Source: Escallonia rubra
Lineage: Eukaryota; Streptophyta; Magnoliopsida; Escalloniales; Escalloniaceae
Direction of reading: 5' to 3'
Length of the DNA stretch: 64,000 nucleotides
NCBI GenBank assembly: GCA_033065855.1
Contig: JAVXUO010003225.1
Coordinates: 310,001 to 374,000 of the forward strand
Within the stretch, counting starts at the first letter, position 1. The number at the start of each line of letters is the position of its first letter. The notes under the pieces were generated by a model. The model had not been told where the DNA came from and ran no database searches. It saw only the letters and a list, made by a program, of their open reading frames with translations. The translations under genes were made by a program, and so were the position numbers. Of this stretch, positions 9,981 to 45,682 are shown piece after piece.

Positions 9981-12900
9981 TTGGACTTATATTGGGTTAT
10001 GGATTTTTTTATATGGAATTTTGATGGGGCTTGGAATAAGATATTCCTTAATGAGTTTAGGGAAATTGTGAGGAAATTTCATCCAAATATGATTGTTATT
10101 CTTGAGCCCATTGTTCAATACTCTAAAATGGGAAACTTCTTTCACGAACTAAGCTACAATACTTCTTGTATTGTCAACCCTAAAGGGAGATCTGGGGGGT
10201 TGTGGATGTTCTGGGATTCCACTCAAATTAATGTTAATATCCTTGAGGCCAACAATCAGGTTATCCATGCCAATATAGCCAAACGCGATTTTGTTGATTG
10301 GATGTTATCCGCAGTCTATGCAAGCCCCAACCCGAGGAAAAGAGAAGAATTATGGCAGAACTTAAGTAACTTTGCAAATACTAAGACTAGACCTTGGCTG
10401 GTAGGAGGGGATTTTACTGACATTGCTAATATTTCGGGGAGAAGAGGATGTGGGGAAGAAGGAGAGACTGCAGAAATAGGAAATTTAGAAACAATATTGA
10501 TAGCTGTAGTTTGATGGATCTTGGATGTACTGGACCGAAGTTGACATGGACCGACATGAGAGAAGGGTGGGCCAACATTCAAAAAAGATTAGATAGATGC
10601 CTGGAAAATCCTTCATGGACAGGAATCGTGAAGCTCAGGTATGTAATCTCCTTCGTACCACTTCTGATCATTGTCCTATGCTTGTGAACTGTATAGGAAC
10701 ATACTTTCCTTCGAACTCTTTAAACATACCTTTTCGTTTGGAAGCTGCTTGGATGTTGCATGATAAATTTATTGACATTGTTAATAATTCTTGGAACCAA
10801 AACAATGAAAATATTATTACCATTACGGAAGAATTTAAACTTCAGGCCATTAACTAGAATAAAGAGGTTTTTGAAAATATTCATAGAAATAAAAGATTTT
10901 TACTTGCTAGATTAAAAGGAGTACAATGTGTTTTTGGCTGAGCATTGGTCTCATGACCTCCAACTTCTTGAGAAAGAGCTTAGAAAAGAGTATATTAATA
11001 ATTTGGATTAAGATGAAATGCTTTGGTTTCAGAATTCTAGAATTTAACCGGCATTGTCAGGGGGATAAAAATACTATATACTTTCATATATCCACCATCA
11101 GCCGTAAGTAGAAAAATAAAATAAATGCCATCCTTTTTTAGTAAGGCATGTGGTTAACTAATCCCTGGAAACCACATTAACAACCACTTCAAGAAGTTTT
11201 TTCTGCCGATAATGATAAAGTGGTTGCCTTCCACTTTAGAAATAACTACCCTAAACTTGATGGAGAAGAAGCCATACAACTTGATAGACCTTTAAGTGAT
11301 GTTGAAATTAAAGAAGCCTTCATTAACATCAAAGCCCTTAAGGCCCCTGGACCCGATGTGAATGTCATGTTTTATCATAGGTATTGGAATGTACTGGGTA
11401 AGAGTTGTTGTGATTTTATCAAAATGTGTTACATAACTAGTTGTATGCCACATGAAAACAACAAGGCTTTGGTTACTCTAATTCCTAAATTTGAAATTCC
11501 CCAAAGAATAAATGAGTTTAGACCCATTAGTTTACTCAATGTGACCTATAAAGCTCTTTCTAAAGTCCTTGTTGCTAGATTAAGGCCTTTTCTGAAGAAA
11601 CTCATTAGTCCTGCTCAAAGTAGCTTTATTCCTGGGAGAACTACCACTAATAATGCCATTATTACTCAGGAGATCATCCATACTCTCAAAAACATGAAAG
11701 GAAAAAAAGGAGGTCTCATTTTAAAAATTGATTTAGAGAAGGCTTATGATAGATTAAATTGGAATTTCATTCAACACACTTTGGTGGATCTTAATTTCCC
11801 CACTGCCTAGGTCAAAATTATCATGAGCTGTACAACTAGTAGCTTTATGGATATTTTGTGGAATGGTTCCCCCCGGAAACCATAAAACCTGGTAGGGGAA
11901 TAGGCAGGGGGATACTTTATCTCCCTACATTTTTGTTCTATGCATGGAGAAATTATCTAACCTTATATCTGATTGCAATAAGGATACTAATCTAATTGGT
12001 TTTAAAGCCTCTAAGAGGGGATCCTTTTTATCCCATATGTTCTATGTTGGTGAACTTGATTATATTCAGTAAAGAAGGGATAAGGAATGCAACAAGATTA
12101 TGGAAGTGCTAAATAATTTTTTTGTAATTTCTGGTCAAAAAGTCAATCTCTAAAAATCTAACTTGTTTGTTTCTCCTAATGTGCCTTTGATGAGAGCCAA
12201 AAGATTGAGTTATAATCGTGGCATTCCCTAGACTAATAACCTTGGTATATGTCTCAGTATCCCTTTAGTCCATAAAAGATTGTACCAGAATCTTATGATC
12301 ACATTTTACAAAAAATTTAGAGAAGACTTGTTGGGTGGAAAACCAAGCTTCTCTCACTTGCAGGTAAAGCCACTCTAATACAGTCTGTGGGAAAAGAGAA
12401 AGTTACACCTGGTGAGTTGGGGTACTGTGTGTAGGCTCAAAAAGCAAGGTGGGCTTGGGATCAGGAAGGCCAAACATAACAATCTTGCCTGCTTGACCAA
12501 ATTAGGATGAAAGGTTGTGACTAATGAAGATATCCTATGGGCCAAAGTCTTAAAAAATAAATATGCTAAAGTCTTAAAAAATAATTATGCTAAGAGTGAG
12601 AATCCTAGGGATTAATACACAAACAATAGAAAATCCCATGTCTGGAGAAGCATACAAAAAAAGCCTGCATATCCTTAAAAGCTTTAGTGAAAAATTAACA
12701 AAGGCAATAAAGTGACTTTTTGGTATGATTGGCGGTGTGGAGAGGGACCTTTAGCTCAAGAAAGTTAGATGGTCAATGATTTGATTAAAGTTGAGAACAT
12801 AATATCTAATGGTGGTTGGGACAACAATAAGATTACTAGCTTGGTTAATGATGAGATTCATGACCAAATTCTTAGAATTTATCTCCCTAAGGAAGAAATA

Positions 12901-18212: not shown

Positions 18213-18385
18213 TGTTAAGATTATTTGTAAGATTGTATATAGTTAAGGGGTTATATTGTTATTTCCCTTAATCTAGAATATTCTTTAGGGTTTCCTAGTC
18301 CTTGTAGGATACTACATCCATGCCTATATAAAGGCTCTTTGTACATATTATGTGATACACAAGAAATATATCTTCTCTTCTAACA
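18213..18385 (+). repeat. 5' LTR of the Copia element
   Basis: Starts tgttaagatt, ends tctaaca. It contains a TATA-like cctatataaagg near 18323-18334 that probably drives element transcription. Confidence 0.95.
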
Positions 18386-18401
18386 TGGTACCAGAGCTGT
18401 G
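18386..18401 (+). other. Copia primer binding site (initiator tRNA-Met type)
   Basis: TGGTACCAGAGCTGTG lies immediately after the 5' LTR. Plant Copia elements typically have TGGTATCAGAGC here, complementary to the 3' region of initiator tRNA-Met; this copy has one difference in that stretch. Confidence 0.85.
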
Positions 18402-18990
18402 ACGATCCGACCAGCTATTTGCCGCCCAAGCCCCGCCCACGGTTACTGTTCATCAACCTCTTCCATAATTTTTTTTCCTCCCCTTCTTGTTACCTCTATC
18501 GAATTCCTTTAGCCCAAACCCTACTCCAACACCACCATAAGACTCATTTTTCTTCACCGATCAAAACGACGCCAACCATGCCACCAGATTCGTCTCCACG
18601 CGCCTCCACGCGCCACCCAAAGTTCTGAGTCAGGTCCACGCGCCACCAGTATTCTCCACGCGCCCCACGCGTCCACGCTTCTCACGCGCCCGCGCTCCCT
18701 ACTCTCCAGAACCTATTGGGTTGACCCACGACGCCCGCCTGACCCATATCCGAACAGCAGCCCGACCCTGCTTTCTACCCGGTTTACTATTTTCGATTCA
18801 TTTAGACCGGTTTATTTTATTTTAACCGGTTCGCTTGCTTTTGACGTTTTTTCAGGTCTCAGACCGGTTCCCACCTTTTTTATCATTCTGAACTCATGCC
18901 CACCATCCGTTTGCTCAAAATCTATTCATATCTTTTATTTTTTGAGCCTCTCATTCGGTTCCTTTATTATCTCTTACTCATCTCTTTTGC

Positions 18991-21900
18991 TTGGTGACTT
19001 CAATGGATCCTGCTCAGCCTATTTCTATCATCCTTGATGGTTCTAATTATATTTTGTGGGCCCAAGCTATGCGTAGCTTCATCAAAGGTAAGAAATTGTG
19101 GCGCTACCTTACTGGCGATATTACTATACCCGTCAAAACTGCAGATGAACCTCAACTAAAGTTCGATGAAAGACTTGACGATTGGGTTAGCAAAAATCAT
19201 CAGATAATCACCAGGTTCCGTAATGCCTCTATTCCGTCTATCTATCAACAGTTTGGCCGCTATAATACTGCCAAAGAAATTTGGGATCTTTTGGCTCAGC
19301 GATACACTACAACAGATCTTGCTCATCAGTATCAGCTTCATGATTCCCTTCACCGGATGAAACAAGAACCTGGTCAGTCTATCAATAGCTTCCTTTCTTA
19401 GATGCAAGGGATTTGGGATCAATTGGAACTTTCAGAACCATCATGGACTTGTTCGGAGGATTCAACTCATTTTATTGTTTACCGTGACCACTTTCACCTT
19501 ATCCATTTTCTTATATCTCTTACTGATGCTTATGAATCTGTCTGAAGCTCCCTTCTGCATCGGAGTCCATTACCTACCCTAGATAATGCCGTTGCTGAAC
19601 TTCTTTCTGAAGAAACTCGTCGAGGCCTTCTGCAGACCCGTCGTTCTGATACTGTTCTTGCTGCTCCTTCCCGACCTTCACACATCTCTTCACCCTCATC
19701 AGCTTCAAGACGTTCGTCATCTTCTTCCTTTCAACATGAATGTCGGTACTGCCATGAGTTCGGTCATAAGACTCTTGATTGTCATGTACGCCCTTGCAGA
19801 CTATGTCGTAAGATTGGTGCTGGTCACTTTCCACAAGACTGTCCTCGTAACCCTGAAAAATGGTCCAAGAATCCCAGCTCAACTAGTGCTCCATCAAAAC
19901 CAGGGATTCAGTCTAGGTTCAAGCCTCCTTCCCACTCTGTTGTTGCTGCTGATGATGTACTGAACGATTCCTCGTCTTCCGCTCTCTCGGTTAATGATGT
20001 TGCTGAAATAGTAAAGCAAATCATGTCTAACTCTGGTACTCCATCTTCCTCTGCTCTTTCAGTTACTTCAGGTAACTCCTCTTGGTATTTTGATTCTGGG
20101 TGCTGCAATCATATGACATCTGATCCTTTTTCCTTTGTCTCCAAACAACATTTGTCCCATTATCCACTCATTCATACTGCCGATGGTTCTCCTATGCCTG
20201 TTAATCATGTTGGTCATGTCTCTACATCTACCTTGTCTCTTCCTGATACTTACTTTATCCCTTCCTTCAGTTAAACCTTATATCTGTTGGTCAACTTTGT
20301 GATCTTGGTTTTGACTTACACTTTTCTCGTACTAGTTGTCGTGTGCAGGATCCAGAGACGGGACAAACTATTGGGATCGGCCGTAAAGTTGGACGATTAT
20401 TTGAGCTCATTAATTTATCCATCCCTCATCGTCCTACCATTCCGCCTCAGTCTGCTGCCTCTGTTACTTCACAAAATTCTCTTGAGTTGTGGCACTCTCG
20501 TTTAGGTCATGTTTCATTCTCTAGGCTACATCCTCTAGTATCTAGTGGTTTGTTAGGTGTCGTCAGCTCTAAAAATTTTGATTGCTTACCATGTCAGCTT
20601 GCTAAACAAACTGTACTTCCATTTCATTTAAGTACTTTAGTTTCTTCTGCTCCATTTGATCTCGTTCACTCTGATATTTGGGGGCCTTCTCCAAACACTA
20701 CTATGGGAGGATCCATATATTTTGTTATTTTTATTGATGATTATTCTCGTTTTACATGGTTATATTTGATGCGAAATCGATCTGAATTATCTCAAATATA
20801 TCATACTTTTGTTACCATGGTCAAAACTCAATTTTCTCACAATATTAAGCTTTTTCGTACTGATAATACCATGGAATACAAATCAGAAGAGTTTTTCCAG
20901 CTTCTTAAAAAAGATGGAACCATTACTCATAGATCGTGTCCCAGCACTTCTCAACAAAATGGGCGTGCTGAACGCAAACATCGACATATTCTAGACACTC
21001 TTCGTGCTTTGCTTATTTCTGCCTCGTGTCCTGAATTTTTTTGGGGGGAAGCTGCTCTTACGGCTGTCTATACCATTAATTATGTTCCATCTCCCACAAT
21101 TGGTAATCAGACTCCCTATGATCGTCTACATGGGTACTCTCTCGACTATAGTATGCTTAAAGTCTTTGGTTGTGCTTGTTTCGTTCTTCTCCAGCCCCAT
21201 GAGCGTACAAACTTAGAACCTCGTGCACGTCTTTGCTGTTTCATAGGGTATGATATTGAACATATATAAGGGGTATCGGTGTTGGGATCCCATCTCTAAT
21301 CGTTTACGTATTTCTCGCCATGTTGTTTTCTAACATAAGATGTTTTCCTCTATCTCTTCTTTTCATTTACCTCCTTCATCTAGCGTTCTATTTTTTACCA
21401 ATTCATCTCTTCTGCTATTTTATGATTCTGATGAAACCCACATACCACCGTTTGATGACTTTACGGCCCCTCCTGAGACGTCTGCCCGCCCTGCTGATCC
21501 TGTTACACCTGATCACGGTCCACCATCTGTCTCTGAGGTTACTGAATCTACACATTCCCTTCATGATCGTCCACAGCGGGCACGAAAACCTTCAGCATAT
21601 CTTCAGGACTTTCATTGTTTTTCTGCTATTATTTCTTTACACGAGCCTCAATCTTATCGCGAGGCTAGTTCTGATCCTGCTTGGCAGCAAGCGATGCACG
21701 ATGAATTACAGGCACTGGCTAAAACCCATACTTGGGATCTAGTTGATCTTCCTCCTGGAAAAACGGCCATTGGATGCAAATGGGTCTATAAAATTCAAAC
21801 TCGCTCTGATGGTTCCATTGAGCGTCATAAGGCCCGTTTGGTAGCAAAGGGTTTCACACAAGAATATGGTATTGAATACGAAGAAACATTTGCTCATGTA

Positions 21901-23172
21901 GCTCGCCTTACCTCTGTTCGTATTTTACTTGCAGTTGCTTCTGTTCGCAAGTGGCCTTTATTTCAGATGGATGTCAAGAATGCATTTCTTCATGGTGATC
22001 TCATCAAGGAAGTCTATATGCAGCCTCCTCCAGGATACTCTCATCCTCCGAACAAAGTTTGTCGGCTTCGTCGTGCAATATATGGTCTCAAACAAGCTCC
22101 TCATGCTTGGTTTTCCAAGTTTAGTTCCACTCTGCATCAATTTGGTTTTGCATCAAGTGCATATGATTCTGCACTCTTTATTCGGAAATCTACCCAGGGT
22201 ATCATACTTGTGCTTCTCTATGTGGATGATATGATTATCACAAGAAGTGATCTTGATGGCATTTATATTCTCAAGCAAGATCTTAATCACCACTTTGAGA
22301 TGAAAGATCTTGGTACACTCAGTTACTTGCTTGGACTTGAAGTTTCCACTACCTCTGACGGATACTATCTTTCTCAAGCCAAATATGCTTCTGATCTCAT
22401 TTCTCGTGTTGGTTTAACTGATAGCAAAACTGCCTCTACTCTTCTTGAGCCTAATGTGAGGTTTACTCCTCTTGATGGTACACATCTTCGTGATCTTACT
22501 TTGTATCCTACATTGGTTGGCAGTCTTGTGTATTTGACCGTCACTCGCCCTGATATTGCATATGTTGTGCACTTGGTTAGCCAATTTCTCTCTGTTCCAC
22601 GTACGACTCATTTTGCCGCAGTCCTTCATATTCTTCGATACATCAAGGGTACCTTATTTCATGGCTTACATTTTTCATCTCATTCCTCTCTTGAGCTACA
22701 TGCATATTCTGATGCTGATTGGGCTGGGGATCCTACCGATCGACGCTTTACTACTGGTTTTTGCTTCTCTCTTGGTACCTCTCTTATTTCTTGGAGAAGT
22801 AAGAGACATACCCTCATAGCACGTTCTAGTACGGAAGCTGAATACCGAGCACTGGCTGATACAACCCAAGAGCTTTTATGGTTGCGTTGGTTACTTGAGG
22901 ACATGGGAGTTACACATTTTGCTGCTACAACTTTATATTGTGATAATCGAAGCGCCATTAAGATTGTTCACAATGATGTGTTTCATAAGCGCACTAAACA
23001 CATTGAGATTGATTGTCATTTTGTGCGTCAGCATGTTGTTCGTGGCACTGTTTGCTTACATTCAATCACTTCGCACAATCAAACGGCATATATTTTTACC
23101 AAATCACATCCTCCAGGGCGACTTCAAGAGTTAGTTTCCAAACTCCAGTTGGTTTGTTCTCTCCCACCTTGA
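18991..23172 (+). pseudogene. Copia Gag-Pol remnant
   Basis: Gag runs from about 18991 (likely ATG at 19003), with a UBN2-type capsid region and a zinc knuckle near 19735-19860. The protease signature WYFDSGCCNHMTS is at about 20083. A pre-integrase ELWHSRLGH motif and the integrase core (HSDIWGPSP, DDYSRFTW, then a conserved Glu in QQNGRAERKH) lie in 20343-21269. Reverse transcriptase (WVYKIQTRSDG, QMDVKNAFLHGDL, LLYVDDMII) and RNase H (YSDADWAGDP, SSTEAEYRALA) lie in 21340-23172. Breaks: stops at about 19400 (TAG), 19543 (TGA) and 20272 (TAA), a frame change between 20274 and 20343, a stop near 21267 and a second frame change before 21340. The RT-RNase H part remains open for about 610 codons. 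Confidence 0.9.
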
Positions 23173-23185
23173 GTTTGAGGGGGGG
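23170..23185 (+). other. Copia polypurine tract
   Basis: The purine run tgagtttgaggggggg sits directly before the 3' LTR, as expected for the plus-strand primer. Confidence 0.85.
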
Positions 23186-23358
23186 TGTTAAGATTATTTG
23201 TAAGATTGTATATAGTTAAGGGGTTATATTGTAATTTTCCCTAATCTAAAATATTCTTTAGGGTTTCCTAGTCCTTGTAGGATACTAGATACATGCCTAT
23301 ATAAAGGCTCTTTGTACATATTATGTGATACACAAGAAATATGTCTTCTCTTCGAACA
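23186..23358 (+). repeat. 3' LTR of the Copia element
   Basis: Same length and ends (tgttaagatt...cgaaca) as the 5' LTR, with about 8 mismatches. Confidence 0.95.
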
Positions 23359-23363
23359 CGGTT

Positions 23364-30720: not shown

Positions 30721-31553
30721 CGAGCAGTACACTCCAGTGCTCGTCCGCTACATAGTGTAGCGGACTAAGAGGCCTTTTGAGATTGATTAAAAAAAACAGA
30801 TTCAGCTTAAATCTTAATCAGTTTTTAAAATCTGATTTAATCAGAATCAGTTTGCCGTTTGGCAAAAATAATTATAAACTAGATTAAATCTATAAAAAAT
30901 GTTTGGATAAAAAGTATTTAAACCAGTTTTACTATGACAAATGACCATATAGGACACTCAATAAACATTTTCTAATATCCAAGCAACGTTAACATAACTT
31001 TTATTCGTAAATAACTATAATGCCTAAATAAATTATTAAAATAATTATTTTCACGCACCTACAGAAGTTGTTACTTTTTATTTTAAATTAAAAACACATA
31101 GAATCTCATGTTATTGCTTATAGTACGATAATATCTCCAAATTACAAATAAAGTTTATCTTAAGCAAAAAAAAGATTATCTAAGTGTAGGAGAAGAGTTT
31201 AGCAATAGGAGAAGAGATAAACTCCAGAAACTATCTAAGATAATTAATTAAGGGGTATGAGAGGTCTTTTTGTGAAAAATATGGGGATATAATGGTAAAT
31301 TAGAAGGTCAAACCTGATTATGGAATAAATCAGTTTTTAACTTCGAGAGATGGATTAAATCTCTTAATCTCTTTTGCCAAACATCCACATACCTGATTTT
31401 ATCTAGATTAAATCAGGTTTGACCATCCCATAATCAATCCCAAACATGCTCTAATAAGGCACTAGTCTTCTCTTTCTCTCTCCTTTCTCTCATAATGTTC
31501 TGACTTTCTCTCTCTCTCTCTCTTCTCTCGTCACTTTTTGTTTTCTCTCTCAT

Positions 31554-31588
<35 letters not shown>

Positions 31589-32119
31589 CAGATTGCTCTT
31601 CACTCTCTTGATTTACCAGTAAGCAGGTTTGACAAAGGGGTTTTTAATTAAGTTTTGTTGTCTTTTACTCCACTCTCTTTTACCCCTTTCTTTATGCCAT
31701 CAATAAGAGGAGAAAATAGATGTTGTAGCTTCAGAGATAAGGGACACTTCTAGTCCTACCACTCTCTCTCACCACCGCTCCAGTCTCTGCGCCAAATTTC
31801 CAAGGAGATTTCCTTCGGAACCCCTAAAATTCTGCCTGAAATTGTCTTGGATCCATCAAAGTTTTGTCTACTGTACATGTTCTTGTGTGACAGAATGGAA
31901 GCAGCCCAGAAAGCAAAGCTGATAAATCAAGAGAGTGAAGAGCAATCTGCGAGAGAGAGAGAGAGAGAGGATGAGAGAGAAAACAAAAAGTGGTGAGAGA
32001 AAAGATAAAGAGAAAAAGTCAGAACATTAATGAGAGAAAGGAGAGAAGAGAAAGAGAAAACTAGTGCCTTATTAATCCGCTACACTATGTAGCGGACGAG
32101 CACTGGAGTATACTGCTCG
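30721..32119. mobile_element. Foldback-type element with long inverted arms, carrying a nested MITE
   Basis: The left arm (30721-30768 plus 31455-31620) and the right arm (31918-32119) are inverted copies of about 200 bp. Both outer ends read, from outside in, CGAGCAGTA(C/T)ACTCCAGTG. An agg at 30718-30720 and at 32120-32122 may be a 3-bp target duplication. The left arm is interrupted by a second element (30769-31451). The loop is about 297 bases without coding sense. The inner arms are rich in CT/GA dinucleotides. Transcripts would fold into a long hairpin. Confidence 0.75.
30769..31451. mobile_element. Nested Tourist-like MITE (683 bp)
   Basis: Ends are GAGGCCTTTTGAGATTGATTA and, on the other strand, GAGCATGTTTGGGATTGATTA. 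TAA flanks it at 30766-30768 and 31452-31454. Removing it together with one TAA restores the arm sequence gcggactaataaggcac, which pairs with the intact right arm (gcggattaataaggcac on the other strand), so the insertion border is confirmed by an internal control. TAA target and TIR type fit PIF/Harbinger. Confidence 0.85.
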
Positions 32120-32249: not shown

Positions 32250-32347
32250 AGGATAACATGATGTCACTAATTACTATACTTGTACCCGTTAACGAATATA
32301 ACAAAGAACTTACGAGTTCGCAACGGATGTTGGTTAGCAGAATTTTT

Positions 32348-32480
32348 TAGATAAACTGCCAAAGGGTTTTATTTTGAGTATAAATTTGTCAGAACTCGCC
32401 TTTTGAACAGAAAACCCACCACTCATTTAAAATCCTTGAGTAGAGTTACATGATTAGCTCATCGTTAACTGCTCTTCGAA
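32348..32480. repeat. Dispersed repeat copy 1
   Basis: About 130 bases starting tagataaactgcc match 33667-33790 (tagataaattgcc...) in direct orientation with roughly 80-85 percent identity by eye. Both run through gagtataaatttgtca, catttaaaatcc, and acgattag/atgattag. The copies are 1.3 kb apart. Confidence 0.65.
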
Positions 32481-33600
32481 CTTTCTTAAACCATCGTTAA
32501 CTGATCTTCGAACTTTTTAACATGTACGTATACTTCTTGATTCTTTCACCAACATTAGTTGTCTTTCATTTAACATGTTTTGATTATTCACATTAGCAAA
32601 ACTTGTTTAGGTGTATATCACGTGTCTCTAAAAATGCCGGTCATAAAGCATTCACACCTAGAAAGCATGCCACGTTCACACCTTCATAAATCATACATGT
32701 TTTTGTCAATCGACTTTTCCAAGTATTCCTCTAATACTATGTGTGTTCTTTCATTGCCTTTTATTTGACAAAAATGAAGCTATATTAATGTGAAGTACTA
32801 TTATAAGCCTGGTTCTAGGGGTATGAAATATATATCGTCATTATTGCTAAGCTAGGACCTCTTGATGAAGTACGCTAATATCACCTAAATCTTACACTTA
32901 GAAAGAATGAAATACAAAATTAAAAAATGCTAGACTCATCATGTTAACACGAAGTCTTATGATGTCAAAACTAATACGGGAATATATATTCTTGGCATCA
33001 TATAGCTTGGAATCAATTTGTAACCAAAAGGAAAAGGGAAAAGGGAAAAGGGAAAAGGAAAAAGGAAAAAAAAATGAGCAACCTCAGCATTATTTTAAGT
33101 GAAAATGAGTTGTTGCCTTTATCTAATTATTTATATTTATGTTTGAAACCTATCCTTTATTTAGAGCAATGGAGATAGAGGTGGCATAATAGACTAAGGT
33201 CATTTCAGCACTATCAAACCCAGATTTCTAGTTTCTTTTTATCCATTCTCGGATGTGATTTATATTTTCATTGATGATCTTTTTCTTTTTTTTTTCTTCA
33301 TGATTTCATTAAGTGCTAATAAGTAATGGTGTGATTTATAAGTTTTACATCAGGAAACATCCTATTTTGTAACATGTTGTTTAATTGAGAAAAAAATTTC
33401 TTTGATGTTTATATTTTTTGCTCATCTTCCTATAAAAAATGATTTTGTTTCCTTCCAAATTCCAACTAAAATACAGTAATAATTATCAACAAAACGACTA
33501 CAAAAAGAGCCTTAGTCAATGTATCTGTAGATGATGGAGAACTGCTGAAAGTTGAGATGACCCATTGACTTTCCTTTATAAATCTTTAGGGTTTTAAACA
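32481..33600. other. Intergenic, AT-rich, with a GGGAAAA microsatellite
   Basis: No gene seen. At about 33025-33070 there are four or five tandem ggaaaag/gggaaaa heptamers followed by A-rich sequence. The remainder is AT-rich with no supported feature. Confidence 0.45.
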
Positions 33601-33635
33601 AAATAGAAGATTGTTGTCGCATAAAAATCATTGAA

Positions 33636-33666
33636 TCAACGTGCAATGCACGTGCATTGCTGCTAG
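33636..33666 (+). mobile_element. Helitron 3' terminus (5' end not found)
   Basis: A perfect 18-base palindrome, gcaatgcacgtgcattgc (33643-33660), is followed two bases later by CTAG at 33663-33666 and then T. Hairpin plus CTRR plus T is the Helitron 3' signature, although the usual spacer is longer. The element should extend upstream, but no TC-type 5' end could be identified. Confidence 0.5.
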
Positions 33667-33790
33667 TTTAGATAAATTGCCGAAAAAGTTTTATTCTTTG
33701 AGTATAAATTTGTCACGACTCACCTTTTGAAAAAGAACCCATCATTCATTTAAAATCCTCAAGTGGAGTAACACGATTAGATCAATCGTT
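33667..33790. repeat. Dispersed repeat copy 2
   Basis: Direct copy of 32348-32480. It begins exactly at the CTAG-T border of the Helitron terminus just upstream, and its downstream end runs towards the LTR element at 33853. Confidence 0.6.
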
Positions 33791-33852
33791 GACAAAACTT
33801 GTTGCGATACTCTCTAACCATCAATATAAATATAATAAATATATATATAGAT

Positions 33853-34288
33853 TGTTGTGGCCAAAAATTGACCGGGACCGAAAGAGCACGCGAGCAGACC
33901 TGCAAAGCACAACACGAGCAAACGGTGACGCGCCGGGACCCCGGAGGGGGCTCCGGCGGAGAGTCTCCGATGCTTAAGTCAGTAAGCATTTTTGAGAGAG
34001 TATCTGAAAATATTATAAAGTGTCAGAACTTACCATTTTCCTCCCCTTCACTTCCATTTTATAGGAATGTATTAAAGAGTCTGTTACTTGACATAATGGG
34101 TAGTTATCCTAATTAGTGGGAGGTTACCAGGATTTAAAGGGCAGTTATTGCTCATAATGAAATAGTGGGATAGTGGAAAGGTGGGCAAGTGCCACTCCCA
34201 CATCTCTAAGAATCAAGGAGCAGTTTTGGTGCCGTCTGATGGTGACAAGTGTCACCTTCCCGTTGGTGGGTATTTTTTACCCATATCA
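33853..34288 (-). repeat. Left LTR (3' LTR on the minus strand)
   Basis: Starts tgttgtggcc and ends cccatatca on the + strand, so TG...CA bounded. Near its end are the inverted repeats gtgacaagtgtcac and tgggtattttttaccca. Confidence 0.9.
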
Positions 34289-34303
34289 TTTGCCCCCCAT
34301 TCC
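34289..34303 (-). other. Polypurine tract of the LARD element
   Basis: On the minus strand GGAATGGGGGGCAAA directly precedes the 3' LTR. Confidence 0.8.
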
Positions 34304-34410
34304 GTATTCTTTTGGGAGTAAGAATGCGGAATTACGACGATTGTCGTAGCATCGAATTTTGGGCCCTTGTTTAAGAGTCCTCCGCGTTTGGAAGTTTTAC
34401 CAAAAGTAAA

Positions 34411-36190
34411 GGTCTCGTCTACTCAATTAGTTGAGTAGAGGCTTTAAAAGTGCTCGTCTACTCGGCTAGCCGAGTAGAGAACATGGATGTAGTCGTCTTG
34501 CTCGGCTGGTTGAGCAAAGTCTTAAAGGAGCTCGTCTGCTGCGCTGCGCGAGCAGAGAAACAGACTAATGTGCTCGTCGCCTTGTCCTAGCGAGCAGAGG
34601 TTTTAGAGGCTCTAAATGTGTTCATCTGTTCGGCTTGGCGAGCAGAGAAACTGACTCTAATGTGCTCATTTGCTCGGCCTAGCAAGCAGAGGCTTAGAGT
34701 CTCTAAAGGCACTCGTCCACTCGGCTTAACGAGCAGAGAGACCAGCTCTAATGTGCTTGTCTGCTTGGCTTGGTGAGCAGGGAGATTGAGAGGCTCTAAT
34801 GTGTTTGTCTGCTTGGCTTGGTGAGCAGAGACTGAGACCTCGGAGGCAGCTTGTATATTCGGCCGGGTAAGTAGAGGCAGAGGGGTCTAATGTGCTTGTC
34901 TGCTCGGCTTTGCGAGCAGAGGCTTAGACCTCGAGAGCTCTTCTACCCGGCTGGGCGAGTAGCGGCATATGGGTCCAATGTGCTCGTCTGCTCGGTTTTG
35001 CAAGCAGAGGCTTAGATCTTGAATGAAGCTCGTCTACTCGGCTAGAGCAGAGGCATGGTTCTAGTGCGCTCGTCTGCTTTGCAGAGGCTAAGACCAAAGG
35101 CGCTCGTCTACTTGGTTAGAGCAGAGTGGAGACGTGCCAAGGAGGTCGTCTACTCGGCTTGGCCGAGTAGAGACGTATTTATCTGTTCGTCTACTCGGCG
35201 TGGCCGAATGGAGGCGTGTTATGGTGCTCGTCTACTCGGTCTTGCCGAGTGGAGGCGTATCCATCTGCTCGTCTACTCGGCGTGGCCGAATGGAGGCGTG
35301 TTATGGTGCTCGTCTACTCGGTCTTGCCGAGTAGAGGCGTGTTATGGTGCTCGTCTACTCGGTCTTGCCGAGTAGAGGCGTATCCATATGCTCGTCTACT
35401 CGGCGTGGCCGAATAGAGGCGTGTTATGGTGCTCGTCTACTCGGTCTTGCCGAGTAGAGGCGTATCCATCTGCTCGTCTACTCGGCGTGGCCGAATAGAG
35501 GCGTGTTATGGTGCTCGTCTACTCGGTCTTGCCGAGTAGAGGCGTATCCATCTGCTCGTCTACTCGGCGTGGCCGAATAGAGGCGTGTTATGGTGCTCGT
35601 CTACTCGGTCTTGCCGAGTAGAGGCGTATCCATCTGCTCGTCTACTCGGCGTGGCCGAATAGAGGCGTGTTATGGTGCTCGTCTACTCGGTCTTACCGAG
35701 TGGAGGCGTATCCATCTGCTCGTCTACTCGGCGTGGCCGAATAGAGGCGTGTTATGGTGCTCGTCTACTCGGTCTTACCGAGTGGAGGCGTATCCATCTG
35801 CTCGTCTACTCGGCGTGGCCGAATAGAGGCGTGTTATGGTGCTCGTCTACTCGGTCTTGCCGAGTAGAGGCGTGTTATGGTGCTCGTCTACTCGGTCTTG
35901 CCGAGTAGAGGCGTATTATGGTGCTCGTCTACTCGGTCTTGCCGAGTAGAGGCGTATCCATCTGCTCGTCTACTCGGCGTGGCCGAATAGAGGCGTGTTA
36001 TGGTGCTCGTCTACTCGGTCTTGCCGAGTAGAGGCGTATTATGGTGCTCGTCTACTCGGTCTTGCCGAGTAGAGGCGTGGGTCTGTGCGCTCGTCTGCTC
36101 GGCAGAGGCTAAGATCAAAGGTGCTCGTCTACTCGGTTAGAGCAGAGGCCTTCATGGCTTCTTTACTCAACTTGGTCGAGTAAAGAGCTA
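34411..36190. repeat. Hairpin repeat array inside the LARD element
   Basis: About 1.8 kb of units, each of which is ctcgtct plus an inverted repeat. The homogenised core (35140-36080) has roughly 23 units of 41 bp, many in an 82-bp two-unit period. One type has CTACTCGGtcttgCCGAGTAG followed by aggcgtatccatctg; the other has tactcggcgtggccgaata followed by gaggcgtgttatggtg. Outside the core the units are diverged but most still fold: CTACTCAATTAGTTGAGTAG (34419-34438), CTACTCGGCTAGCCGAGTAG (34458-34477), TTGCTC/GAGCAA (34498-34517), CTTTACTC/GAGTAAAG (36161-36185). The open frames across the core arise because 82 bp times three is in frame; they are not genes. Confidence 0.85.
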
Positions 36191-38339
36191 GGAATCCGAA
36201 GGATCTCTATTCGGTTTAACGAGCAGAGAGGTAGGAGTCCATTAGAGTACCTGTTACTCCAACGAGTGAGAGCTAGGAATCAAAAAGAGCATGTTTGCTC
36301 TACGAGGCTTACATGACTCCTTAAGAAAGGAGTATGAGTGCTTAGTTGGACCAATGTTTAAGCGACCCTATATTGAGATGAGGCCGGATGCCCGGCTAAA
36401 CCAACGCATATGTCCTTACTGAAGGTGCGCCAAATGATTAATGGCACTGTGATGATGAGCTTCTCAAATAATTGATCATGAGCGGCTAAAGTACAGTTAA
36501 GGTACTAATGAGTGAGCCTTGTAATATCTCTTTTTTAGGCTATTTTTATTTCTGGAATGACGACGTTCCTCGTCATTTAGAAAAGGCGTGTGGTCATTAT
36601 AACGGTTTTGGTTATTCTCGTGATGCACAAGGCAAGATTAAATTTTTTTTTTTAATTCACCGCTCGGGTGACCTTGGACGTTGGTTGCAAAAGCTCTCAG
36701 CGTAATGATGATGAGGTTAGGTGAGGCATCAATGCATAGGTTGTCGTTGACAAGTGATGGTTTATAGTGCTCGGTAAATTCGAGAGGGACGATTGACCAA
36801 GGCTTGAAACTACTTGATAGATTCTTACATGGCATGAGTGGTGATGAGCTGGTCATGCTGCTCAGCCATCGTATGAGGGGGAGTGGAGGTTTCGTGCGAG
36901 AGTGGTCATAGTCTCATATACATATGGAACCCCCCTGACTAAGAAGGCATAGATGCAATTATGGCGTCTTAGTCATTGTGTAGGGCATGCTTTACAAAAC
37001 ATACATAGTCTGTCAGCTTAAGAGGACACACATGGAAAAGCTAGAGGATCATAGCTTGTTCGCATGTCCGAACGAGAAGATAAAGCTATGGGACCATGAT
37101 CTGTTGAAACAATGTCTGCTCAAAACGTCACCGGATGAGTAATAAAGATAGTGTCAATATACTGTTCGGGTATGTGCAACAATCTCTGGCAACTCTGGCA
37201 AGTAAGGCCATTGATTTGCTGGTTGCACAAGCACGAGCTATCTGTGAACCAAGAAGACATCCAAGAGTTTGTGTGTGGTCCTCTTGTACAAACCTTCTTG
37301 TATAGTGAAAATCCTCTTTGGTCCAAGCGTGCCTATTGTGTATGTGTGTGTGAGTCATGGAGACTAAGGGAACTCCACACCAAAAAAGGAGGCAATGAGT
37401 GTTGGTGAGGTACTTGCCAACGGGACCGACAAGTTTTGGGGCAAAGGGCTGACTTAGACGACCATCGGGTTGGCTTGTCTAGGTGCCGCACGACTCTCGG
37501 GCGTGAGTGCGAGTCCCGGGCCCACGACTCTCTCGGGGCGTGACAATGGTATTAGCTACCAAATGTACTGGCGATGTTTTTAGCATAGGCATGCAATGCT
37601 CTCAGAGCTACCAGATTGCTAGTAGCGTGCGCCTCTCTGCTACTCAAGTCAGCTTGTTACGTCAAACCAACATGATGATACAGCTCAAGCTTTATGCGTA
37701 ACTAAAGCCATAAAGGGTTGTGAACTTGTTTTTCACTTATGAAATGGTTTGCATGCCACTGATGGAAGTCTAGGGATGCAGTATAAACCTTTGTAATAGA
37801 AAAAACATCACGGAAAAATATAGCAAGGGAGCATATGAGCTGATTAAGGTACCTATATTTTAACACTGAGATATGAACAATAATCATGCTATGTGACACT
37901 ATTACTACCTTGTCCGTTTAGACAGTTGGGTTGTGTCGTATTGCGTGACGCAAGTGAAGCATAATAGTAAATTATAAGCACTCAGATGGCCTGAAGGCGC
38001 TTCGCCAATTGAAGCAATTGGGCGACGCTAGACCAAGAAATAAATAGGTCTAGGTTAAAGTATTTATGTAATATGCAGGCATATGTTAAGCGCGTCGACA
38101 CTTAAAATTATAGCCGTTGCGTATTACGTCGTGTAGAAAGAAACATGTGTATACAGTTTTTAGCGATGGATATGACTATTCATGCATACATTTTAAAGAA
38201 GCAAATATGCATAAATACATCGCCAAATAAGATTTAAATAAATCTTGATTGTGGGCTTTAATCATAAAGATGCATAATTATGCGATAAATGCATAAATTA
38301 GGATTTTATAATTTAAAGGAACAACATCACCTGGCTTCA
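36191..38339. other. LARD interior, no coding sense
   Basis: No retrotransposon domain on either strand. Bases 36240-36520 are weakly related to the array flank. A short GC-rich block at 37410-37560 (cgggaccgac, gcacgactctcgggcg, gagtcccgggcccacgactctc) contains repeated cgactctc words. Confidence 0.5.
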
Positions 38340-40030
38340 GTTACTTTTTCACGAATAGTGGTAGCTCTAGCGTTGCCATAGTGCCGCCGTGAAGGGAACC
38401 TCCATCTTTGACGATTGGGTTCCGGCCAGCAACTGATCTGTCAGATCTGGTCACGTCCTCTCCATGGACGCCGAAGGTCGCGCCTCTGGTGGCTGTGACG
38501 GTGGAGTCTGTCGCTAGTGGGAGCTCTAGCGTTGCCATAGTGCCGCCGTGAAGGGAACGGCGAGCGTCGCGGCCGGCGGAGGCGTGAGGGTCAGATTAGC
38601 GTGGACCCTTCGCCGGCGTTGTGTAAGTCCACGTCGATTGAATTTGGAAGGTCACCGAAGGGGCAGCCGTACTATGGTGTGGCCGTGGCGCCGATCTGTT
38701 GCCTCGGCGGTGGCGCTGATGCTGGCACGATTGTGATAGGCCGATGAAAGAGTCATCGCTGTGGTGCCTAGCTCTGTGTTGCTTGTCATTACGGTGGAGA
38801 GGATCTGGCGGATCTGGCGAGCGACGGTGAGATGGCAACGTGACGGCGTTGTCGCGGTGGTGGTGTCTCGACGGCGCGGGTTTTCTGGTGGCGCTGCTGT
38901 GGCATCCTCCTCTTCTCTTTCTTTTCATTTTTTCTGAATGTTGCCTTCGCTGTTCCAGCGGCCTCACGGCGGTGGTCGGCCGCGACTGTTATGGCGATTG
39001 GGCACGAGTGAGGTGGCGATGGTAGATCAGGCAGCCCCTACTGGTGGCGACATCGGGGCTTGGCCGAAAATAGAGCGCGATGTCAGGGAGCTGTGGTGAA
39101 GCGGCGCCGTCGCCGTTAGCTTGTGGTGACCGGCACGACATCGTTGATGGTTGCGGGTTTCGACCCTTGATGTGACAGTGATGTGGCGGTTGCCTGGCGG
39201 TGTTGGTGAAACCACTAGAGGACGGTGCCGTGGTTAATGATTTAGGGGTTTAGACGACTCGTTGAAGTTGGTCGTGGTTGCAGAGACGATGGCCCTTTTG
39301 GCTGAGGCCGTGGTGCCGTGGAGTTGGCCGGAGTGGTGCAACGGCGGATCTGGCATCCCTTGGTCGCGAGGCTGAGACGGCAATGGTGCTGCCAGTATCA
39401 TTGGAGTCGACTGGACGGATGGGTGGCCGCTGCAATAATGGGCCGAACCTGGCGGCGATGCCTCAGAAAATTGCTGCATCGTGTATCTCGACGGCTTGGT
39501 GGTTGCGCCGATAAGCCTCGGCACTGCTTCTTCCTATTCTGAATTATTATTATTTTTTATTGCGATGGTGCGCCATCGTAAAAGGCCGCAGTTGTGCAAT
39601 TGGTTGATACTCCGGTTGCGACGCTTCTTTTGGCAGCGTCGCTGGCACGATGTCGCAGATTATGACGGTGAGACATCGGGGGTTTGAACGATGATTGGGC
39701 GATGCGATTGTTAGGGTGCGACGCTACTGGTCGCAAAAGCAGTGGGTTGGTGGCCGAAGAAGAAGGCACCTTGTGGATTTTTTCGGCACTGCTGATGTTG
39801 TTGCCGGTGGATGATCGTGCACATGCATTAATGATGGCAGTGGAGGCTGCTTCCAGGCGGCGGTCGTGGCTTCATAGGAACATCATTGGGTTTTGATGCC
39901 GTTAATGACCACTGGTGGTATGCTGACCGCCGCGATTGCCGCCCGGTGCTGCGGACGATATTTCAGCTGGCGTTCTGTACTCCTTTGCGTTTCGTCGTTG
40001 ACATGTTTGCTAGGTCTGTTTGGCTAGTCG
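38340..40030. other. GC-rich, GTGG-triplet-rich LARD segment with a 43-bp direct repeat
   Basis: The sequence is rich in ggcg, gtggcg and tggtg words, strongly unlike the AT-rich surroundings. A block gctctagcgttgccatagtgccgccgtgaagggaac occurs at about 38363-38399 and again at about 38524-38558. Open frames on both strands are low-complexity Arg/His/Pro readings. No Gag domain was recognised even though this is the Gag position for a minus-strand element. Confidence 0.5.
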
Positions 40031-40048
40031 GTCCCACGGATGGCGCCA
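40031..40048 (-). other. Primer binding site of the LARD element
   Basis: On the minus strand TGGCGCCATCCGTGGGAC lies three bases inside the LTR at 40052. TGGCGCC followed by a TGTGG-like stretch is common in plant gypsy elements. Confidence 0.75.
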
Positions 40049-40051
40049 AAA

Positions 40052-40487
40052 TGTTGTGGCCAAAAATTGACCGGGACCGAATGAGCACACGAGCAAACCT
40101 GCAAAGCACAACACGAGCAAACGGTGACGCGCCGGGACCCCGGAGGGGGCTCCGGCGGAGAGTCTCCGATGCTTAAGTCAGTAAGCATTTTTGAGAGAGT
40201 ATCTGAAAATATTATAAAGTGTCAGAACTTACCATTTTCCTCCCCTTCACTTCCATTTTATAGGAATGTATTAAAGAGTCTGTTACTTGACATAATGGGT
40301 AGTTATCCTAATTAGTGGGAGGTTACCAGGATTTAAAGGGCAGTTATTGCTCATAATGAAATAGTGGGATAGTGGAAAGGTGGGCAAGTGCCACTCCCAC
40401 ATCTCTAAGAATCAAGGAGCAGTTTTGGTGCCGTCTGATGGTGACAAGTGTCACCTTCCCGTTGGTGGGTATTTTTTACCCATATCA
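40052..40487 (-). repeat. Right LTR (5' LTR on the minus strand)
   Basis: Same ends and length as 33853-34288. The three differences lie within the first 60 bases (a/t, g/a and g/a between the copies); the remaining sequence looks identical. Confidence 0.9.
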
Positions 40488-42127
40488 ATAATATAAAAGC
40501 CGAGTTCTTCACTGGAATTCTCTTCTCTGGTTAACTCTGAGGTTACATTGAATCTGAACTTCTACTTCACTTATTAATGTTCCGAGAGGTTACCTTAAAT
40601 CTGGACTTCTACTTCACTTATTATTGTTACAATTATGACTTTTAATGCGTTCTCATCATTGCTATTGCAATTAAGAAGCGGAAAACAAAGGGACAATAAT
40701 TAGTGCATTATTATTGTTACAATTAATCTAAATTTCTAATCTACTACATTTTGACTTCTAATATCGTTTTATTATTACTATTCAAATTAAGAAGCCAAAA
40801 ACTGCCTAATCTGCTTCCTTATCAACTGTTTTCCTCTTTAAAGTAGATGGTTAGACTTCTACTACTCTAATACTCTTCCCAAAGAGCCAATATGTCACTC
40901 TTTTGGAACCCAAAAGGAAGAGCTTCTTCAATCTAAAGCAGATGGTTAGACTTCTACTCAGCAAAGAAATTAAAACTTCTTCACTCAATCTCCCTTTCCT
41001 CCACCGCACACATAGTCTTTGTGCTCCACATTTAGATAAGTGATTTCTTAATACTATGTCTTATTATAGACAAGTTTTCTTTTTTCTTTTATTATAGTTC
41101 TCTAGAGTAGGGTGATGTTCCTAAGATTGTTCAAATTAGATGGTGATAGTGTCATATGTTAGGGGAGTATTTATAGTTTTGAACATAAGTAGCGGCGGTT
41201 TTCTTTTTCTAGCCTAGGGTTGTTTTCAACTTTTTATAATACTTTCAAAATTAGTATCACACTAAAAAGAGATCTTTAAATTGTAAATTTTTGCACATTG
41301 TATATATGTGCCCTACTTTTCAACTAAACCATTGCACTTTTACCGCTAGCAAGCTGTGTGTTGAAGTACAAAATTAAAACACATCTTTAGCCACGGTGTA
41401 TATAAATGGGCTTGGTATTAACAAAAAAGTGTCTAATGGGATTGTGCTAACAAAGTACATTCTTCTTATGGCTAATGGATTATGCTGACTTTTTAGCTAA
41501 TACTTTCTCTTATAGGCAAACAAATATAATTTTCTAAATCCTTAGTTGACAAGATAAAAGAATGAAAAGGAAGTATTAGGCAACTTATAAGAATCTATTC
41601 TAGAGATCAGACTACTCAAAGGATATTGTTTATGCCATGCATTTGGTTCCGGTTTAAATCACCATATGTCAGGCATTACGTTGTTGATTCCGTTAATTAA
41701 TTGAAATATATTTGAGTAACCATTTATACTTTTCTCGAAAGCTGAGAAACGCCCCCATTTGCCTCTCACATAGCACAAGGTAAGTTTTTAAGGAATCTTA
41801 TCTTCCAACCTTTATCGTGAGTTTACAAGTTTTATGCATCAATCTTCTAAGGTTAACATGTTATACTCAATTTGGACCAAATCTTTCTAAATTGAACTTT
41901 AAAATGGTTTTGAGAATGTTTAGTAGATAAATTCTAAAAAGCTGAGAGTGGTCAATAAAAGAAATAAAAAGGTAAATGAGTTTTAAGATGAGTCTTAACC
42001 TTCATTGGATGATTCAAACACTGATAGTTGTTCTGATGTGGTTTTTGCAACGTAGGGGGTCGATGGTAATAGACTAACAGTTAAGTAATGGTAGTTTCAA
42101 CAGGAACGGTGGCGACGTAAAAGGTGT
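40488..42127. other. Intergenic, AT-rich, with small local duplications
   Basis: At 40540-40640 a block gaggttac...acttctacttcacttatta is repeated about 58 bases later, and a tattgttacaatta...aattaagaagc block is repeated at 40620-40795. No gene was recognised. Confidence 0.45.
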
Positions 42128-44017: not shown

Positions 44018-44392
44018 ATCATGGATTACCGTACGGCAGGAGACACTTTTGTTTTAAATGTTTTAGTGTCAAAAAGTGCAACACGCCAAATTCTCTTCTG
44101 GGAAGCATGGGCTACATAGTACAGACTACACAAAAGCATCAAACTCAGCGTAATTCCTCTCTGAAACAGCCACCCTCTTCCTCACACAAATCCACTGCAC
44201 GTCTGCACTCACTCATTCTGATTCCCACCTTTTCTGTGTATTCATGGCATCAGCGGCCTGAGAGTGGTATAAGATAAAATGGGCAGCAGTTACTTGTCAG
44301 ATTTTTCTCTACTGATCACATTGTAAGTCGCTCTTTCCCTCACAACCTTGAAAAAGAATTCATCTTTTCTTGCAACTCTTTCATCTGGAAAA

Positions 44393-45682
44393 ATGTCAGA
44401 CTACATACCCCAAGAGCTGATTCTCCAAATCCTCACAAGATTGCCCCCAAAATCTCTCCTTAGGTTCAGGTGCGTCTCAAAATCATGGTGCTCTCTCATT
44501 TCAAGCCCCAATTTTATAGCCATGCACACCCGCCAGCTGACCCTTTCCAATCACTTTACCAACAACACTCGCACACTTATTAGACGCTACAATTTAACCC
44601 AAAGAAAAGAACTCTATTCTGTCCATTTCGACACTGACCAATCATTCAACATTGACCATGATGCACAAATTGAGTTCCCATTTAGTGGCTTTGTCCGCTC
44701 GTACTTTCGAATTGTGGGTTCTTGTAATGGCTTGCTTTGCATCTCAGACGATTTGTTTGGTAACAAGGACACTATAATCCTGTGGAACCCCACCATTAAG
44801 CGCAAACTGAACCTTCCCATCCCGCGTGCTACATTAGAATCTAGTGAAGAAAATGTGGGTGTTCTTGGATTTGGATTTGATTGTAACGCCAATGATTACA
44901 AGGTGGTGAGGCTCGCTTATGTGCAAAGGGGTGATTGGTACAAAGTGCCCCCGCTTGTTGAGCTGTACACGGTTAAAGAGGGGGAATGGAGGGGAGTTAG
45001 TGCTCCTGCTCCTCGGTATTGCATTGCCGAGCATTTTTGGTCACAGGCTTTTGTTAGTGGGAAGGTGCATTGGATTGCGTTTCAGCGGAGTGGGGGGCGT
45101 GGTAGTATGGTTAGCTGTTTGGTTTTGTGGTTCGATTTGGGTGATGAGGTGTTTGGCGAGATGATGTTGCCGGAAAGTTTAGTCCGCGAATCCCCTATGA
45201 ACATGGCGTTAGGGGTAGTGGGGGAGTCATTGGCAGTTTTCCAAAGCAATAGATGTATGTCGGGTAGGTGTTGTTCCATATGGATGGTGAGAGAGTATGG
45301 TGCGGTGGAATCTTGGAGTAGATTGTTCAATACTGACCTTGACGGGCATTTGGGGATTCCGCTAGGCGTTAGGAAGAACGGCGAAGTACTAATGGCAGCA
45401 AGAAGTGGAGAATTGATATCTCATAAAACCAGGACGGAGGGAAGTAGGAATCTTGGAATTTTCGGAACGAAAAGCTCATTCTACGTGGACAGCTATTGTG
45501 AGAGTCTTGTTTTACTTCTGGAAGGAAAGGAGGTCAAGGGAACGGAAGCGAGTGACAGTGAAAGCGATTCATCTGAGGAGTATGAAGAAGAAGAGGAGGA
45601 GGAGGATGAAGTACAGAGCAGGGAGCATTTTGTTGAGTTAGCTATGATTCAGTTCCTTACTGCGTTGCTCAGTGAATTTTGA
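44393..45682 (+). CDS. F-box protein with F-box-associated (FBA/CPR30-like) domain
   Basis: A single exon of 429 residues. The first ATG in frame is at 44393; upstream codons are open but lack ATG. Residues about 3-45 are the F-box (YIPQELILQILTRLPPKSLLRFRCVSKSWCSLISSPNF), which binds SKP1 in SCF ubiquitin ligases. Next come the usual F-box-associated marks: VGSCNGLLCIS near residue 105, ILWNPTIKRKLNLPIP, GFGFDCNANDYKVVRLAY, LVELYTVKEGEWR, and later VSGKVHWIAFQRSGG and LVLWFDLGDEVFGEM. This domain selects the substrate, which is unknown. The C-terminus has a very acidic Ser/Glu/Asp run (about residues 385-415) that is unusual for the family. The gene is intronless, as is common for this class, and no flanking duplicate is present in the window. 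Confidence 0.92.
   Translation: MSDYIPQELILQILTRLPPKSLLRFRCVSKSWCSLISSPNFIAMHTRQLTLSNHFTNNTRTLIRRYNLTQRKELYSVHFDTDQSFNIDHDAQIEFPFSGFVRSYFRIVGSCNGLLCISDDLFGNKDTIILWNPTIKRKLNLPIPRATLESSEENVGVLGFGFDCNANDYKVVRLAYVQRGDWYKVPPLVELYTVKEGEWRGVSAPAPRYCIAEHFWSQAFVSGKVHWIAFQRSGGRGSMVSCLVLWFDLGDEVFGEMMLPESLVRESPMNMALGVVGESLAVFQSNRCMSGRCCSIWMVREYGAVESWSRLFNTDLDGHLGIPLGVRKNGEVLMAARSGELISHKTRTEGSRNLGIFGTKSSFYVDSYCESLVLLLEGKEVKGTEASDSESDSSEEYEEEEEEEDEVQSREHFVELAMIQFLTALLSEF

Follow-up and report, generated by a model that had tools for sequence, protein, structure and literature searches.

A tandem array of hairpin-forming units near the 3′ end of an LTR retrotransposon of Escallonia rubra without recognisable genes

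Near the 3′ end of an LTR retrotransposon of Escallonia rubra, an asterid of the order Escalloniales, about 45 copies of a short hairpin-forming sequence stand in tandem. The locus raises the question whether the fold of these hairpins has been preserved by selection. The window analysed here is a stretch of 64,000 nucleotides from contig JAVXUO010003225.1 (assembly GCA_033065855.1, positions 310,001 to 374,000 of the forward strand), and all coordinates count from its first letter. An initial annotation of the window had pointed to paired differences between the stems and suggested that these units have retained their fold rather than their letters.

The element and its array

The element occupies 33853–40487 (6635 bp). 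Its two LTRs, 33853–34288 and 40052–40487, are 436 bp long each, are identical at 433 of 436 positions (99.3%, three differences) and enclose an interior of 5763 bp. They start with TG and finish with CA, which is so in both readings, and therefore the LTR ends alone leave the strand ambiguous. The element is assigned to the minus strand because a primer-binding-like site and a polypurine-tract-like sequence are both in place there; a plus-strand reading was rejected, as neither is in place on the plus strand. It follows that the array lies at the 3′ end, last before the polypurine tract and the 3′ LTR. In the order of the minus strand, the features are:

40052–40487, minus strand: 5′ LTR, TGATATGG...CCACAACA on that strand, a 436-bp direct repeat
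40032–40048, minus strand: primer-binding-like site TGGCGCCATCCGTGGGA, separated by 3 bases from the 5′ LTR, read from the sequence
36311–40051, minus strand: interior with no recognised protein domain in Pfam scans of 33 of 60 stop-to-stop open reading frames (ORFs)
36089–36310, unstranded: four diverged units at the 5′ edge of the array (36089, 36123, 36158 and 36200, by unit delimitation), and remnants found by reading
35144–36088, unstranded: homogenised block of 23 units of 41 bp (the last of 43), with an 82-bp higher-order pattern and register shifts
34411–35143, unstranded: 17 diverged hairpin units of 34–48 bp next to the 3′ LTR, by unit delimitation
34289–34303, minus strand: polypurine-tract-like GGAATGGGGGGCAAA, abutting the 3′ LTR, read from the sequence
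33853–34288, minus strand: 3′ LTR, a 436-bp direct repeat

The primer site starts with TGGCGCC, presumably not the Met type. A target-site duplication of LTR retrotransposons usually measures 5 bp; no exact one was found here, the 5-bp flanks being TAGAT and ATAAT, and recombination or decay is a possible cause of its absence.

Stop-to-stop ORFs of at least 50 amino acids that overlap the element number 60. No gag-pol domain was detected, since none of the 33 ORFs scanned reached the curated cut-off of Pfam, and the antisense TRP28 ORF (PF04195) had no match among the 15 plus-strand ORFs scanned. Matches below the cut-off to HIRAN (E 0.18), EGF_laminin (E 0.003) and DUF1563 (E 0.097) are short and unrelated, and they were dismissed as chance. 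The same applies to mir-2766, the sole match in an Rfam scan of 33000–41000 (E 0.67, 21 bits vs. a cut-off of 60). As a protein probe, a 130-amino-acid frame of the interior gave 13 candidates, none with an E-value of 1 or better, and the open frame of the array gave 383, none with an E-value of 10 or better. The element can therefore be called an LTR retrotransposon, as the initial annotation had it, by its two near-identical TG...CA LTRs, primer-like site and polypurine-like tract, and it is gene-less as far as scanned.

Several features lie in or around the element. The part of the interior at 38300–40000 is G+C-rich (52–60% in 400-bp steps vs. a window mean of 40%), and the ORFs scanned gave no Pfam match there. 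A 47-bp tandem duplication (40539–40628, 1.9 copies) sits just outside the 5′ LTR, and the second copy of a direct repeat (32346–32469 and 33667–33793, 83% identical) sits just outside the 3′ LTR. An inverted repeat at 31452–32074, with arms of about 170 bp that are 83% identical, is foldback- or MITE-like. Farther off, a separate copia-like element (18213–23362) has flanking direct repeats of 177 bp that are 94.9% identical and Ty1/copia-type ORFs with gag_pre-integrs, rve and RVT_2 at 20343–23172. An ORF at 11220–11810 matches RVT_1 reverse transcriptase and is possibly a LINE remnant. The F-box protein encoded at 44348–45682 shares 96% identity, across 97% of its length, with a protein of Escallonia herrerae; the next match listed, from Lonicera, reaches 56%.

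The array runs from 34411 to about 36245, and its edge lies at least 108 bp 5′ of the polypurine tract. It was divided into 44 units (the first at 34413), each derived from a short inverted repeat; the repeated sequence is a palindrome of about 22 bp within a monomer of 34–48 bp. The initial annotation was right about the tandem palindromes. The array zone may reach further: a degenerate unit lies at 36249 and a short inverted repeat near 36290, with possible remnants to about 36310. A hairpin pattern allowing up to 3 mismatches was matched 33 times over both strands of the window, every time in the array, with 0.00 matches expected from 100 shuffles.

Homogenisation of the centre to 41/82-bp units, over about 0.95 kb, was confirmed by Tandem Repeats Finder, which reported periods of 41 bp (23.3 copies) and 82 bp (11.6 copies, 92% matches) at 35146–36102, as well as diverged dimers of 88–91 bp within 34549–35078. 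Most of the 23 central units are nearly identical, and diverged units stand at both edges; the unit pairs 35068/35102 and 36089/36123, which flank the central block, resemble one another. The loops CGTGG and TCTTG alternate in the 82-bp pattern, and this alternation is broken by runs of two or three TCTTG-type units from 35308, 35841 and 36005, breaks that are read as 41-bp register shifts.

The stems are of two kinds, CTGCTC/GAGCAG and CTACTC/GAGTAG, and mixed stems, whose pair 4 has A on the left and C on the right, occur at 34711, 35028, 35102, 36123 and 36200. The other paired stem differences quoted in the initial annotation are all present: CAA/TTG at 34413, CGG/CCG at 34452, TTGCTC/GAGCAA at 34491 and CTTTACTC/GAGTAAAG at 36158.

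Stability of the hairpins and covariation of the stems

Compared with dinucleotide shuffles, the folding energy of 27 units has a mean z of −1.8 on the plus strand and −2.3 on the minus strand. On average, the hairpins are thus more stable than the shuffles. That nearly every unit is an inverted repeat goes slightly too far, since 8 of the 27 have a z above −0.3 on the plus strand, and units 34572 and 34849 have only 5 and 4 Watson–Crick pairs of 9. The shortened units 35068 and 36089 retain perfect 5-bp stems. The 27-base core has a mean identity of 0.69 among the 17 diverged units on the left, vs. 0.48 for the spacers (0.47 and 0.41 when shuffled), where the core window overlaps the spacer in three shortened units. 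Something favours the core, be it constraint or exchange that starts and stops in the spacers.

The threshold used for maize miRNA-like regions (PMC10760457), 110-nt windows below −40 kcal/mol, was applied to both strands. The transcript (minus) strand has 40 such windows of 180 in the array, 1 of 364 elsewhere in the interior and 2 of 33 in the LTR, and the plus strand has 117, 62 and 1, respectively. The account of maize Ty3 elements in the same source gives no obvious peak of these structures. Absolute fold energy was rejected as a sign of selection, since the plus strand is the more stable one in the array and the remaining interior alike. The interior at 36311–40051 is in itself far more stably folded on the plus strand (62 vs. 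1 of 364 windows), and the gap between the strands is probably due to strand base composition.

For the covariation analysis, arms were placed by hand and checked against the window in 27 of the 44 units, giving 22 distinct arm pairs with 9 stem positions. The other 17, all of them central, have arm pairs that these 27 already represent; neither the degenerate unit at 36249 nor the inverted repeat near 36290 enters the pair statistics. Arm shuffles and the location of the signal were based on the 22 distinct arm pairs, and the tree test on all 27 units.

Watson–Crick pairing is found in 143 of 190 cells, a fraction of 0.753 vs. 0.697 with the right arms redealt (p 0.005) and 0.695 with redealing within columns (p 0.002). 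The excess persists with G.T counted as paired (0.842 vs. 0.814, p 0.016), with A.C counted (0.821 vs. 0.792, p 0.010) and in the 19 diverged arm pairs alone (0.736 vs. 0.686, p 0.006). Covariation counting in the 27 units covered 8 of the 9 stem pairs, with the two shortest units (35068 and 36089) misaligned. Standard pairs amount to 88.1% vs. 85.8% in shuffles (reached by 8 of 500), the covariation score is 0.204 vs. 0.167 (4 of 500), and 12 cells are changed on both sides vs. 6.8 (5 of 500). When the arms are slid by 1 to 3 columns, 37–50% of the positions are paired. The base pairs changed on both sides, 3 vs. 2.4 (212 of 500), and the further pair types, 9 vs. 9.5 (422 of 500), do not stand out from the shuffles.

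These shuffle controls take no account of the relatedness of the units. In the tree test, the parsimony numbers of changes were placed randomly on the branches of the 27-unit tree. On this tree, which is long-branched, has no support values and was built partly from the tested columns, the pairing of 0.786 in the 27 units gives p 0.07, the cells with an alternative Watson–Crick pair number 15 vs. 5.7 (p 0.018), and the columns with more than one Watson–Crick type number 4 vs. 3.0 (p 0.35).

The signal can be located. Pair 4 alone (A-T vs. G-C) gives p 0.002, the remaining eight pairs p 0.09, pair 2 alone p 0.015, and pairs 8 and 9 p 0.07. Once units 34413 and 36158 are also removed, pairing in the eight pairs other than pair 4 is 0.730 vs. 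0.736 expected (p 0.73). Outside pair 4, the commonest pair occupies 121 cells, 42 cells are changed without compensation and 5 are compensated. The pairing excess thus comes from one base pair, which carries a two-subfamily split, together with two units close to the array ends; the split at pair 4 may be a single old event. The stems quoted in the initial annotation are nearly all of the covariation evidence and not a sample of it.

The mismatches bear on the same question. The transcript corresponds to the minus strand, so selection on the transcript would tolerate A.C on the plus strand, which is G.U in RNA, and purge G.T. In the 22 arm pairs, the pairs broken on one side are 17 G.T and 13 A.C on the plus strand, showing no sign of an RNA-strand preference nor a clear sign of the opposite.

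It is true, then, that some units differ by paired changes, in the form of five compensated cells outside pair 4 and the split at pair 4 itself. With regard to covariation beyond a shuffled model, the slight excess of pairing (p 0.005) stands; against a background that allows for relatedness, the three measures are mixed (p 0.07, 0.018 and 0.35), and the excess is confined to pair 4 and two units. That the fold and not the letters has been kept is not demonstrated, in view of p 0.73 without pair 4 and the two units, and of 42 uncompensated vs. 5 compensated cells.

Known arrays and the origin of this one

According to PMC11963269, tandem arrays between pol and the 3′ LTR occur in about half of the recently active Retand elements and are family-specific. 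Hypervariable tandem repeats of the 3′ untranslated region are described as common in the Tat lineage (PMC7004042), where their origin is put down, as a hypothesis, to illegitimate recombination or to abnormal strand transfer from one co-packaged copy to another. The arrays of Ogre/Retand (Tat) elements and the one studied here share short, family-specific monomers in tandem immediately before the 3′ LTR. The Tat lineage has known non-autonomous members, and homogenised arrays of this kind are able to seed satellite DNA. The present case differs from them in its palindromic monomer and in an element in which neither recognisable genes nor the TRP28 antisense gene was found. In the published Retand set, LTRs measure 315–1,194 bp and interiors 7,380–12,869 bp (PMC11963269); the LTR of 436 bp fits, whereas the interior of 5763 bp is below the range. 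Non-chromoviruses are characterised by a primer tRNA other than Met (PMC6317226). Tat elements are recognised by a reverse transcriptase that falls in their clade and by an additional RNase H domain, neither of which the scanned ORFs of this copy showed.

The terms "hairpin" and "secondary structure" are absent from the main text of both PMC7004042 and PMC11963269, and no tandem hairpin array in a Ty3 3′ untranslated region appears in the titles and abstract openings of the matches listed for plant LTR elements, a set with few subscription journals. A Coffea repeat published in 2022 (cited in PMC11963269) is, by its title, alike in its 82-bp period and its position, and the equal period may be due to chance. 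In contig collections that are silent on plants, the hairpin and LTR/primer-site patterns had no match among viruses, nor did the hairpin pattern among prokaryotes. The array is likely an ordinary 3′ untranslated array of a probably Tat-like non-autonomous element, whose twist is the palindromic monomer; the latter may help the array to multiply.

In full, the explanation that we favour, and hold to be reasonably probable, is that the array is the 3′ untranslated tandem repeat of a non-autonomous, probably Ty3/gypsy Tat-type element, a copy with no recognised reverse transcriptase, in which a palindromic monomer was copied via strand transfer or unequal exchange and the stems are paired by descent. 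Unit copies would be made and homogenised when reverse transcription switches strands between co-packaged RNAs, through unequal exchange in the chromosome, or in both ways. The hairpins may aid multiplication by causing reverse transcriptase to pause at the stems; hairpins are reported to favour pausing and strand transfer in HIV-1 (PMC1274309). That the stems still pair would mainly reflect descent of the units from one palindrome rather than change-by-change compensation, and the covariation observed is slight and limited to one base pair and two units. This explanation is favoured by the position of the array, which is the site of Retand arrays between pol and the 3′ LTR, by the near-identical middle, the diverged edges and the 41-bp register shifts in the 82-bp pattern, and by the preponderance of uncompensated over compensated cells outside pair 4 together with strand-neutral mismatches. 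Against this explanation speak the lack of a recognised reverse transcriptase, the short interior, the lack of TRP28 among the scanned ORFs and the lack of an exact target-site duplication, and the better conservation of the core than of the spacers, with some covariation measures above the shuffles, leaves room for constraint.

Such constraint would be expected if the hairpins were under selection as RNA structures of the transcript, acting in packaging, dimerisation, reverse transcription or a 3′-end function. Pairing above the arm shuffles, the covariation score, the number of alternative Watson–Crick cells on the tree, the conserved core, the perfect stems of the shortened units and the 40 stable transcript-strand windows in the array vs. 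1 elsewhere in the interior all agree with this proposal. We nevertheless regard it as quite unlikely, since the signal stems from one base pair and two units, uncompensated changes outnumber compensated ones, mismatches giving G.U in the transcript are not in surplus, pairs changed on both sides hardly exceed the shuffles, and pairing on the tree reaches only p 0.07. Paired changes could also arise with no selection on the fold if template switching copied one arm from the other, a mechanism reported to yield stems and multi-base compensatory changes (PMC8794818). The two adjacent paired changes between unit 34413 and its neighbour 34452 fit one such event. The compensated changes are few, however, with five cells outside pair 4, so that upkeep of this sort, if any, is rare; moreover, inspection by eye shows no loop among the 27 that is the reverse complement of a different one (self-complementary ones aside), and hence there is no trace of whole-hairpin inversion. 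As a general account of the stems, template switching seems unlikely.

The units might instead be protein-bound DNA dyads forming a cis-regulatory field, as in the palindromic repeated motifs of Sireviruses. According to PMC2829016, those motifs mostly have a CGG-CCG core, occur in 8–32 copies per element, are linked to CpG islands and lie in the LTRs, with some in the linker that joins pol to the 3′ LTR. They resemble the array in being many short dyads in a CpG-rich setting, with CGG-CCG in its central units, and they differ in that they belong to Ty1/copia elements and lie in the LTR and before ENV, whereas the units here are in strict tandem outside the LTR. The 1.9-kb array has 24 matches to CGG-N(3-6)-CCG, nearly all of them in the homogenised block, vs. 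11 in the other 62 kb, where a Sirevirus repeated motif has at least 8 dyad copies; the observed/expected ratio of CpG is 1.34 in the central block vs. 0.62 for the window, and strand-neutral mismatches would suit a DNA site. However, among the diverged units only 34452 has the full CGG-CCG core, which is otherwise limited to the central block, and the count is inflated because the block is homogenised. CpG richness is not special to the array, for the ratio falls to 0.75 in its diverged left part and stands at 1.01 in the remaining interior. Nor is the unit recognisably derived from the LTR: in six alignments, their similarity is within the shuffled range, the fraction of shuffles that match the score ranging from 5% to 100% (lowest p 0.05). 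The DNA-dyad proposal thus appears improbable. As the primer site is presumably not of the Met type, the element probably does not belong to the Sirevirus superfamily. A Ty3-type element may have evolved, on its own, a field of about 45 Sirevirus-like dyads in strict tandem by its 3′ LTR, with the palindrome driving expansion by stalling reverse transcriptase and the field acting on expression or silencing; we consider this rather unlikely.

Implications for tandem arrays in plant retrotransposons

The results on this array call for caution, since paired stem changes among the units of a tandem palindrome are not in themselves evidence of a selected RNA fold. Satellite DNA is known to arise from tandem arrays that precede the 3′ LTR. 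With its palindromic monomer, diverged edges and freshly homogenised middle, the array of Escallonia rubra is a good case for asking whether hairpin-induced strand transfer builds such arrays.
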